Assembly (NCBI GenBank): GCA_943789025.1
Contig: CALSSN010000004.1
Coordinates: forward strand, 151,950-215,949
DNA length: 64,000 nt
Source of the DNA: an uncultured Verrucomicrobiales bacterium
Lineage (GTDB): Bacteria > Verrucomicrobiota > Verrucomicrobiia > Verrucomicrobiales > DEV007
Direction: 5' to 3'
Position 1 is the stretch's first letter, and the number at the start of each line of letters is the position of its first letter. The position numbers and the translations under genes were made by a program. The notes beneath the pieces are model-generated. The model did not search any database. It was not told where the DNA came from and worked only from the letters and a program-made list of their open reading frames with translations. This document shows positions 31,380 through 36,130 of the stretch, one piece after another.

Positions 31380-32669
31380 CTAGAGATTCATCAGGTCTTC
31401 GATCTCATCCGGGTCGATTGGAATCCCCGCCATTAAGTCAGTATTCTTCTCTGCCCCGATCACGATATTATTTTCCAGCCGCACCCCGAAGCCTTCTTTC
31501 GGCAGGTAAATCCCCGGCTCCACGGTGAGCACCATCCCGTCTTCCAAGGGTCGGTGCGCAAGGGCGACATCATGGACATCCAATCCGAGGTGATGCGACG
31601 TTCCATGCATGAAATAGCGTTTGTAAAGTGGCCGCTCCGGGTCCTGGGAGGCCACTTTGGAATTTTCCAGTAATCCGAGACGGACAAGTTCGCCTTCCAT
31701 CAGACGACCCACTTCTTTCTCATAGTCTCTAAGTACTACACCGGGCCGGAGCATCTGGCAGCATTCCCGGAGAATGCGCAGAACCGCATCATAGACGTCG
31801 CGTTGACGTGGATTAAAGCGCCCCGAAACAGGGATCGTCCGGGTCATGTCTGCGTTGTAATATCCATACTCAGCCCCTACGTCCATCAGGAGTAAGTCGC
31901 CGGAACGACACTCCCTGTCATTGGCAGTATAGTGCAGCACGCAGCTGTTCGCTCCCGATGCAATAATCGGTTGGTAACCGAATCCGCGTGACCCGGAACG
32001 GAGAAATTCGTGGGCGTATTCCGCCTCAACTTCATATTCCTTGAGGCCAGGACGCACGAAGCCAAGCACCCTGCGGAACCCGGCGGCCGTGATGCCGCAG
32101 GCACGCCCGATCAGGTCAATCTCATCTTGTCTCTTCAGCATCCGCATTTCCGTGAGAAGCGGTGCCAGGCGGTGCAATGCATGCAGCGGAAACTGCTCGC
32201 GACAACGCCGGGTGAATCGCGTATCCCGGGTCTCCACCTCCACCGAAGCACGCAGGTGTTCGTTGCTGTTCAGATACAGACCCTTGCCCTCGATCATGAG
32301 CCTGCGAAAGATCGCGTCGAACTCGCCAAGCCAGCGCACATTGCTGATCCCGGTCTGTTTTTTTGCTTCTTCCCGGGTGACTCGCGGTCCGTCCCAGACT
32401 GCCGCCTGTTCATCGGTTTCCCTGAGAAAAAGAATCTCCTTGTCCTCTTCACTGAAAGCATCCGGGAAAAGAACAAGGATGGTCTCCTCCTGGTCGATTC
32501 CCGTGAGGTAAAAAAGGTCGCTGTTCTGCCGGAATGGGTGAGTGCCGTCCGCGCAGGAAGGCAGGACATCACAGGCGTTTACAAGCGCCAGGCATTTGGA
32601 TTCTAACTGCGCCGCAAGGGTGCTCCGAACTGCGGTGAAAAATGCTGCGGGTGATGTCTGATAGCGCAT
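31380..32669 (-). CDS. pepP: Xaa-Pro aminopeptidase (M24B)
   Basis: [47 protein letters not shown] metal-binding motifs. Confidence 0.92.
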
Positions 32670-32771: not shown

Positions 32772-33836
32772 TTACGGTTGCGTCTTCGCCGATCCTAATG
32801 GGCCTGCCGGAGATAGCAAGGAAGCGCGCAAGGCGCGCCGGTGCGCGCGGTCGGCCGCGATGGCATGCTCGAGAGCAGTTCCGAAAACCCGTGCAGGCAG
32901 AGCGAATGTGGTGAAGCGGTTGACGCGCGCGATGTTGATCCCGACAAGTTTTCCGTTCAGATCGAGAAGTGCTCCTCCTAGAAGCCCTGGATCAATCGGG
33001 GTGTCATGTTGGATGACTTCCGGAAAGTCGACGTTCCTGAGAGAGGTTTTGCCATTCAGGTAGCGACTTGCATCAAAGGGGTCTTCCAGAATCGAGGTGT
33101 CAGAAAGCGAGGCCGATTTGCGCAGCTTTCGTCCGGCGCGGGCGATCACCATTTCAAGGAGTGCACCCGGCGGAAGCGCTGTGATCGCGCCCCGCACCTC
33201 ATCCGGGCTATTCACCTCTTTGTCATCGATGAGGAGAATCACGTCGCCTCGCAGGAGCCCACACCGCTCGGCTGGAGTTGCCGGGAACACCTGCTCGATG
33301 GTCACCCCGTTTTTTGCCACTTCGCGATTGAGATTGACCATCATGATCCCGAGTGCCGCCTTCTTCGCTTTGATCTCGCGCGTCTTCGCACTCACAACTC
33401 CGAGGCTTGCCTCTTCGACGGTGGCTCCCAATGAGACGAGCCAATCTCCCATCCGGGCGGGTTCCGCTTCTGCCTCCCATGTCACGCTGGGGAGTTTATG
33501 GCCAGAAATCTTGAGAATGAGCAAGTCCACATCCGGCAGGATTTTCACGATACGCGGCAAAAGATACCGAGTGCCAAGTTTGACTTCAAACGGCCCTTCG
33601 ATGCGTGCTACATCGCTGTATTTGGTCACCAGATAGCCGTCATCAGAGACAACGGTCGCCACTCCGCTCCGCACTTCGTCTGCATACACCTCCAGAACCT
33701 TGGAGGCTCCCGCACCGGTCAATTCTTCCAGGGTAGCGTCTGAATCCGAGGCCGCAGATGCGCCGAAAACCTCCGTCATTGAGAGCGCGGTGAGTATGGC
33801 AGTCGTGAGCGCGGCGGATTTTTTTAGCACAGTCAT
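32772..33836 (-). CDS. HtrA/DegP-like pseudoprotease with PDZ domain nested in trypsin-like fold
   Basis: GYLVTKYSDV in place of TNxHVV, DVDLLILKI (Asp region kept), PDZ-like GVTIEQVFPATPAERCGLLRGDVILLIDDKEV, then IDPGLLGGALLDLNGKLVGINIA in place of NPGNSGGPLLN. Confidence 0.75.
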   Translation of the reverse strand: MTVLKKSAALTTAILTALSMTEVFGASAASDSDATLEELTGAGASKVLEVYADEVRSGVATVVSDDGYLVTKYSDVARIEGPFEVKLGTRYLLPRIVKILPDVDLLILKISGHKLPSVTWEAEAEPARMGDWLVSLGATVEEASLGVVSAKTREIKAKKAALGIMMVNLNREVAKNGVTIEQVFPATPAERCGLLRGDVILLIDDKEVNSPDEVRGAITALPPGALLEMVIARAGRKLRKSASLSDTSILEDPFDASRYLNGKTSLRNVDFPEVIQHDTPIDPGLLGGALLDLNGKLVGINIARVNRFTTFALPARVFGTALEHAIAADRAHRRALRASLLSPAGPLGSAKTQP

Positions 33837-34834
33837 GGTCGCTCTCCGAGTTTCACAGTGAATTTGAGGGTTTCGTCCTCCCGAAGGATGGTGAAGTCGA
33901 CTTTCTCGCCCGGGCCCTTCTGTTTGAGAATGTCATTAAAAGTGTCGTATTCCTGCACCTTTTGCCCATCCACGGATGTCACGATATCACCGACCTCAAT
34001 CCCCTCTTTCTCAGCAGCCGTCCCTTCCAGAACCCTGCGAATGACGACCCCGTCAGTATGTGAAGTTGAGGCGACTCCGAGAAACCCTCCACGACCGGCA
34101 GCGAAACGGGTGATAATTTTATCCTCCAGCATCGCCTCCCAGTGACTTTGGAAAGGCTCCATCGAGACGTGGTAGTTGTCGGTGAATTCACCACCGATGA
34201 AACTGTGAATACCGATCACCTTGCCAGCGAGGTTGAAGAGCGGTCCTCCGGAATCCCCTCCCAGTAACTCGCAACTGCTCTTCATCTTGTAGCGCCGCTT
34301 TTCCAGAACCCGGCCCACTCTGAGAACCATCCCTCGCTCTTCATCCACCCCGCCCGGGTGACCGAGCGCGAAACACCATGCGCCGTCCTCGAAAGATCCA
34401 TCTTCGACCTCGACATACGGCCACACGTTTTCTTCCGAGTCTGCAATCTGAATCAAGCCTGCATCACTCTGCTGGTGAAGCCCGAGCGTCTTTCCCTGTA
34501 CTTTTCTGCCGTCTTGAAAAATGATGTCGACCTCCCTGCCGGGCGCGGCATACACGTGCGCCGCGGTGAGAATCAATCCCGTCTCGTCAATGACCACCCC
34601 GCTGCCCATCCCGAAAGGCGAATGGATCGCCACGGTAGCCGCCATGCTCCGGTTGAGGCCCGACTGGACCTTCGCCTGCACTTCCCTGAGCTCACGAAGA
34701 CTCTCATTCTGGATCTGGTCAGCTCGCGAATCCACCGGATTCACCACCAGCAGAGCCCAGAGAGCTGGAAGAAAGTGGATTAATTTGGGATGCATCTCAA
34801 ATGAGAATCTACCTTGGGACGGGCATGTTTTCAA
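33833..34834 (-). CDS. HtrA-like S1C serine protease with PDZ domain (intact triad)
   Basis: LTAAHVY (His), SDAGLIQI (Asp), LLGGDSGGPLFNLAGKVIGIHS (Ser), C-terminal PDZ (EGIEVGDIVTSVDGQKV). ATGA overlap with next gene. Confidence 0.9.
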   Translation of the reverse strand: MKTCPSQGRFSFEMHPKLIHFLPALWALLVVNPVDSRADQIQNESLRELREVQAKVQSGLNRSMAATVAIHSPFGMGSGVVIDETGLILTAAHVYAAPGREVDIIFQDGRKVQGKTLGLHQQSDAGLIQIADSEENVWPYVEVEDGSFEDGAWCFALGHPGGVDEERGMVLRVGRVLEKRRYKMKSSCELLGGDSGGPLFNLAGKVIGIHSFIGGEFTDNYHVSMEPFQSHWEAMLEDKIITRFAAGRGGFLGVASTSHTDGVVIRRVLEGTAAEKEGIEVGDIVTSVDGQKVQEYDTFNDILKQKGPGEKVDFTILREDETLKFTVKLGERP

Positions 34835-34988: not shown

Positions 34989-36038
34989 TCAGCCGACTTT
35001 TCGTAGTTTGGTGACCCGTCCGTGCACGACCCACTCGACCAAAAGGATGTTTCCGTCTTTGTCGAAGACGGCATCGTGCGGGTGGACGAAGCGGTTGGTG
35101 GGCCACTTGTCGGGGTGCGGGCCGCGCATCGCTTCTTTTTTGTCGAGTACCCGGGCACGCCAGCTCGGGTCGTCGCCGAGTTGCGCCACCACCTGGTCGG
35201 AGCCATCGAGGAGGGTGATCCGCGCGTGGAGGTCCGGAACCAGCATGATATCTCCCTGAATGTCGATGTCCGCCGGGAACAGAAACCCGTCCATGGTCTT
35301 GAGGTGCTTACCCTCCATATCGAACCACTGGAGGCGCTTGTTGGCGCGGTCGCAGACGGCGGTTTTTGGGGTGCCGTCGCGGTCGTCGAGCCATTGGCCG
35401 TGGGGGGTGCGAAATTGACCGTCCTGGCTGCCAGGACCCCCAAGGGTCCGGAGCAGGTTGCCGTCTTTGTCGCAGTGGAAGATGTAGTGTGATCCGTAGC
35501 CGTCACCGAGGAGAACTTCGTCGTTGGGTGCGAAGCTGACATTGGTCGGGCGAAAGTGCTTCAGTTCGAGTTCGGATGCCATGCGCAGTGCTTGGTGGCC
35601 GCGCTCCCACACCATTTCGCCTTCGAGCGTGGCCTTGGTGAAGGCCATCTTCGGGCTCATGGGCGAGAGATAAAGATATTCGATGCCATCCGCTTCCTTC
35701 CGGATATCGATACCATGGCCCATCCCCGCGTGCTGGGGCATGAGCGTGCGCATGAATTCCCCACTGGGATCAAACACCGAGATAGAGTGTGGTTGGCCCT
35801 GATGGGAGATGTAGACGAGTCCTTTGCTGTCGATAGCGATGCCGTGGGTCGCGCCTCCGAAATGGCGGCCTTCGGGGAGCTGGGCCCAGTTGTTATGGCA
35901 TTCGAAGCGGTAGTCCCCGTCGCCCACGGTGGTGGTGTCTTCTTGGGCGATCAGAATCTGGGGGAAGGCTGAGAGCGCCGCTGCGCTGCTTCCGAATTTC
36001 AGAAAGCGCCGACGGGAGGAAGAATTGGTCTTGATCAT
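34989..36038 (-). CDS. TAT-exported NHL/6-bladed beta-propeller protein (peptidylglycine-lyase-like)
   Basis: SSSRRRFLKFGSSAAALSAF twin-arginine signal; repeated NHL-type GxxxYVSHQGQPHSISVFDPSGEF. Confidence 0.82.
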   Translation of the reverse strand: MIKTNSSSRRRFLKFGSSAAALSAFPQILIAQEDTTTVGDGDYRFECHNNWAQLPEGRHFGGATHGIAIDSKGLVYISHQGQPHSISVFDPSGEFMRTLMPQHAGMGHGIDIRKEADGIEYLYLSPMSPKMAFTKATLEGEMVWERGHQALRMASELELKHFRPTNVSFAPNDEVLLGDGYGSHYIFHCDKDGNLLRTLGGPGSQDGQFRTPHGQWLDDRDGTPKTAVCDRANKRLQWFDMEGKHLKTMDGFLFPADIDIQGDIMLVPDLHARITLLDGSDQVVAQLGDDPSWRARVLDKKEAMRGPHPDKWPTNRFVHPHDAVFDKDGNILLVEWVVHGRVTKLRKVG

Positions 36039-36130
36039 GCCGCAGGGTAAACGTCCGCTGTCATTCCACGCAAGAGATAGTTGGTATTTCATGTTGGCGA
36101 ACCTGTCTTCTTGGTTATCATCTCTTTCCT

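Follow-up and report, generated by a model that had tools for sequence, protein, structure and literature searches.

The analysed window is a 64,000-nucleotide stretch of DNA from an uncultured Verrucomicrobiales bacterium, and it carries two adjacent HtrA-type genes on its minus strand (Table 1). The upstream gene, P0002, encodes a protease with canonical domain order and an intact His/Asp/Ser triad, and its stop overlaps the start of P0001 on the same strand by 4 bp. The gene downstream of this pair is Xaa-Pro aminopeptidase-like, as named from its sequence; such a gene adjoins the pair in approximately 40 loci (some counted twice), many of them of Verrucomicrobiaceae type. Just upstream of the pair (34989–36092, minus strand), a twin-arginine-like signal is followed by a repeat-type, propeller-like protein.

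Table 1. Features of the P0001/P0002 locus, in window coordinates
Feature	Coordinates	Strand	Basis
Nested-PDZ HtrA-type putative pseudoprotease gene P0001	32772..33836	-	ORF, 354 aa, ATG start; TIGR02037, E = 1.9e-27
Probable Sec signal peptide, P0001 residues 1–29	33750..33836	-	Sequence MTVLKKSAALTTAILTALSMTEVFGASAA; predicted
N-terminal half of predicted trypsin-like fold, P0001 residues 46–155	33372..33701	-	DegP alignment, AF2, family alignment
PDZ domain, most likely inserted, P0001 residues 156–245	33102..33371	-	Pfam, DegP PDZ1 alignment, model strands 164–243
Conserved linker from PDZ to barrel, P0001 residues 246–270	33027..33101	-	Family alignment
C-terminal half of predicted second barrel, P0001 residues 271–341	32814..33026	-	Pfam, DegP alignment, AF2, family alignment
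Partner P0002, trypsin-like protease with C-terminal PDZ	33833..34795	-	ORF, Pfam; triad from alignment
Xaa-Pro aminopeptidase-like gene	31380..32669	-	Downstream of pair; named from sequence

The domain order of P0001 differs from that of DegP and DegS, in which the PDZ domain is placed after the protease domain. A sequence-only reading had described barrel strands, an Asp region, a VGDW-like strand, a PDZ segment and then a degenerate Ser loop, and this order can be read directly in the open reading frame. KYSD (residues 72–75, with Ser74 at the catalytic-His site), the retained Asp104, a GDW strand and SAKTR (149–153, forming Ser149-Ala-x-x-Arg153) precede a PDZ domain containing GVTIEQ (from 177), which is followed by a QHD strand (276–278), IDPGLLGGALL (281–291, with Leu286 of IDPGLLGG at the nucleophile site) and NIAR (301–304, within NIARxxR). 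The N-terminal sequence suggests that the protein is probably exported.

Profile searches agree with a split protease domain. Pfam placed PDZ_2 at residues 160–237 (E = 7e-11), together with PDZ_6 (E = 3e-9), and matched Trypsin_2 (E = 1.4e-8) in two separate stretches, the better of which (265–299) covers the end of the profile alone (positions 110–144 of 144). The HtrA/Do model TIGR02037 aligned in three stretches, scoring 96 bits where the cut-off is 416, and TIGR02860 (spore_IV_B) matched the PDZ part only (185–240; E = 0.0035), with 16 bits where the cut-off is 305. In an alignment to DegP, for which the query lacked Met1 (add 1 for P0001 numbering), query residues 57–150 correspond to DegP 82–177, residues 261–303 to DegP 178–220, and residues 155–261 to DegP PDZ1 (251–362). 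These matches are colinear only when the PDZ is lifted out, and since DegP 177 and 178 are adjacent, the P0001 PDZ sits within the protease domain, as the sequence-only reading had proposed. We also considered a frameshift or chimera as the source of this order; both are ruled out by the single open frame and by 119 unique relatives that keep the nested order.

Structure models suggest that the two segments flanking the PDZ belong together. The AF2 model of P0001 (pLDDT 88, pTM 0.79; 45 sequences in the alignment) places confident strands before the PDZ (47–155) and after it (271–277, 289–291, 296–304 and 310–314). The alternative of two independent domains, in which the C-terminal segment completes no barrel, was not seen in this model. 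Compared with HtrA structures, the full nested model reached a TM score of approximately 0.3 (Foldseek, best by E-value among the best 50 matches listed), a low value that probably reflects the inability of sequential alignment to track the altered domain order, and none of the best 50 Foldseek matches listed was a solved structure matching the nested model as a whole. We therefore modelled a PDZ-less relative, L085 (G375; ORF from 743, residues 505–725), in which the partner is fused to a pseudoprotease without the inserted PDZ. L085 shares the KASE, QHD and NIA motifs with the nested family, yet has no PDZ, and in the alignment its SVPERHI strand passes through a short loop into the SAIQHD strand without interruption. 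Its model (pLDDT 88, pTM 0.83; built from an alignment composed almost wholly of nested relatives) contains the same strands as the P0001 model and resembles the protease domains of DegS-deltaPDZ and HTRA1 (Foldseek TM scores of 0.66–0.71 by query, reaching 0.82 by target). L085 is accordingly modelled as an uninterrupted DegS-like barrel. From these two models, the flanks of the P0001 PDZ most likely form one trypsin-type fold, and the PDZ (residues ~156–245) is most likely a domain insertion that interrupts the second trypsin barrel. L085 itself represents either a natural empty site or a secondary loss of the PDZ. A short remnant-like LYLG is found at its PDZ-less site.

By alignment, the insertion position corresponds to the HtrA sensor loop L3. 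In DegS, the binding of a peptide by the PDZ is signalled to the active site via loop L3 (residues 176–189) and its Arg178, and PDZ–L3 contacts in the absence of ligand are inhibitory (PMC11642142). The SAKTR segment of P0001 is in register with SALGR of DegP, and the Ser-Ala-x-x-Arg pattern is kept in the nested relatives (Ser in 118/119, Arg in 117/119). From this register we infer that Arg153 of P0001 is equivalent to DegS Arg178. In the upstream partners, the stretch spanning L3 is 24–27 residues long in 111/112 sequences, versus 36 in DegP. Another relative, L084 (G276; minus-strand ORF of 495 aa), has a tandem of two PDZ domains at the barrel position where P0001 has one. The L3 site of the HtrA barrel thus seems able to accommodate a single PDZ domain, a pair of them or none.

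P0001 and its nested relatives are predicted to be catalytically inactive. His is missing from the catalytic-His site of all 119 unique nested sequences (Ser in 112), and Ser is likewise missing from the nucleophile site, which is occupied by Met (94), Cys (18), Ala (3), Ile (3) or Leu (1, the window protein itself). The catalytic Asp is kept in 115. The surroundings of the dead site include Lys in 114, Ser in 112, Glu in 98 and Arg in all 119, and Gln and NIAR are also strongly conserved. Such strong conservation of a pseudo-active site points to a non-catalytic function rather than decay. L020, L025, L026, L084 and L085 are among the members in which Cys replaces Met at the nucleophile site. 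We consider it highly unlikely that the conserved residues (KASE, Cys/Met at the nucleophile position, NIARxDR) constitute a new catalytic site or a metal- or ligand-binding site. The conservation and the Cys-bearing members would fit such a site, and MamO sets the precedent of a dead trypsin fold that came to bind metal (PMC4794232), but every member lacks a His general base in its usual place, and the nucleophile position is mostly Met, or Leu in the window protein.

The nested order is found across the order Verrucomicrobiales and sporadically elsewhere in Verrucomicrobiota. Nested relatives at E <= 1e-18 are present in 138/190 genomes of the order, and clear matches outside the order but within the class are few. 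In a phylum-level sample, 16/195 genomes match at 1e-30, nearly all of them within the order. A single-protein search of the genome contigs found no relatives, and the relatives were retrieved by a family-alignment search. Named records with relatives include Prosthecobacter, Brevifollis and Verrucomicrobiaceae as well as Opitutales and Limisphaerales metagenome-assembled genomes; a few relatives occur in records labelled Planctomycetota or Kiritimatiellia, which may be misbinned. Two records titled Akkermansia muciniphila (L088 and L113) carry Prosthecobacter-like loci, and their organism labels look wrong. The family profile scores the partner and Do-type proteases similarly, at about 45–73 bits, making both candidate sources of the inserted PDZ. 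Probable Akkermansia genomes have two separate partner/pseudoprotease pairs; within the probable Akkermansia genus (g19), the larger genomes keep two pairs and small-genome members (G036, G058, G064, G073, G081 and others) are without both genes.

The nested gene is closely tied to an active protease gene. In 100/119 nested loci the partner is adjacent, upstream and on the same strand, and in a further 12/119 it is fused ahead of the nested part in a single frame of 603–896 aa, L025 being one such natural fusion. Partners keep the catalytic Asp and Ser in 112/112 sequences and the His in 111, with one gap. No partner was counted or resolved in the other 7/119 loci: three (L018, L036, L166) lie at contig ends, two (L019, L021) have a partner that is cut by the locus end, and in G054 the pair is not adjacent and a partner homologue is found elsewhere in the genome, leaving one (L165) with no partner in the locus DNA examined. 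Long open frames upstream of other nested genes (e.g., L006, L051) were rejected as fusions since no partner domain precedes in frame. Across 190 genomes, 135 have both genes, 50 have neither and five are discordant (nested only in G111, G165 and G189; partner only in G030 and G076; P = 1e-39, Fisher's exact test, a value overstated by the nonindependence of related genomes). Losses of the pair fall in several families. Distance matrices of partner and nested proteins are strongly correlated (r = 0.96, shuffled <=0.13), as is also expected from common descent. Ten partners have no PDZ of their own while the nested PDZ is kept. The sequence-only reading had not raised the nearly obligate partner gene, the natural fusions, the correspondence of the insertion site to L3 or how widely the family is distributed.

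Pairing, fusion and co-loss together argue for joint action of the two proteins, and the contrast between the partner's intact site and the dead site of P0001 suggests that only one of the two subunits is catalytic. A PDZ lodged in its sensor loop, together with the short L3 of the partner, suggests that the dead subunit carries out sensing, or captures substrate, for the partner. We therefore regard as moderately probable a heteromeric HtrA system in which the dead subunit, through its L3-PDZ, does the sensing or receives the substrate for the active protease. In this model, the pseudoprotease and the upstream protease would form a hetero-oligomer, the L3-PDZ would bind envelope proteins at their C-termini or at unfolded segments, and the pseudoprotease barrel with its conserved Arg153 would deliver substrate to the partner active site, activate it, or both. 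We infer the physical heteromer, activation rather than inhibition, and the PDZ ligand. A more specific form of this model, which we offer tentatively, is a two-part machine that splits sensing from cutting: an active protease with a short L3, lacking a PDZ in some lineages, would receive a PDZ-spliced L3 in trans from its dead sister, with the two sometimes re-fused. Two observations count against the model: the fused family member L085 lacks the inserted PDZ, so this domain is not needed in every member, and L165 shows no partner in the locus DNA examined.

Adjacency and fusion are equally compatible with inhibition or a chaperone role as with activation. One possibility, which we judge rather unlikely, is that the pseudoprotease silences the protease until PDZ ligands arrive, acting as an inhibitor or as a folding partner and, in the fusions, doing so intramolecularly. 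Inactive homologues often inhibit, and the pairing, fusion and co-occurrence data fit this role equally well. The inhibitory PDZ–L3 contacts of ligand-free DegS (PMC11642142) offer a parallel. However, the results fit activation as well, and most upstream partners carry a PDZ themselves that could already provide autoinhibition. It is quite improbable that the two proteins share a pathway without contact, with the nested protein working on its own as a periplasmic chaperone or scaffold. Genes of one operon are often linked by function and not by contact between their products, and in Campylobacter the dead HtrA homologue PflC has been recruited as a structural component (PMC12222027), but the 12 one-chain fusions and the co-loss of the pair across the order favour direct cooperation.

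Several known systems share some features with P0001 and its partner and differ in others. DegP, DegQ and DegS (HtrA, Do; TIGR02037) share with P0001 the trypsin barrel, the PDZ type, a QTD-like strand and the L3 Arg; in P0001, by contrast, the PDZ is predicted to lie inside L3 rather than after the barrel, and its family has lost the catalytic His and Ser and is paired with a separate active protease. In Arabidopsis, Deg5 and Deg8 are an HtrA pair that work together. These, unlike the pair described here, are plant chloroplast proteins, and the abstract of PMC3640471 reports no nested PDZ. MamE, an active HtrA homologue, needs the dead homologue MamO for proteolysis and is activated by it (PMC4794232). 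MamO is by analogy the nearest tested precedent for P0001: both have a dead trypsin site and are encoded with an active HtrA-type protease. MamO differs, however, in its fusion to a TauE-like transporter domain on which activation depends, a domain absent from the Pfam scan of P0001 (353-aa query); a nested PDZ is undescribed in MamO/MamE, and phylum and role are different. PflC is likewise HtrA-derived with a lost catalytic triad, but has the order protease-PDZ-PDZ and forms the flagellar medial disk (PMC12222027). In SpoIVB (S55), the PDZ and trypsin-like domains are intertwined, an arrangement that its authors term PDZ insertion into the protease core; unlike P0001, SpoIVB is an active protease whose PDZ is N-terminal in sequence, with only its beta3 strand entering the core and no chain-level insertion (PMC12502668). 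Our search of the open-access literature, with subscription journals largely outside its scope, found no description of the nested-PDZ architecture.

In HtrA proteases, a relay from PDZ to L3 controls activity; here the PDZ appears to be covalently joined to the L3 of a dead subunit. If the two proteins form a heteromer, sensing would be separated from cutting, and the direction of signalling between PDZ, L3 and active site could be tested with two mixable proteins and their natural fusions. This provides a functional hypothesis for a large, unnamed Verrucomicrobiota family that includes members in probable Akkermansia genomes.
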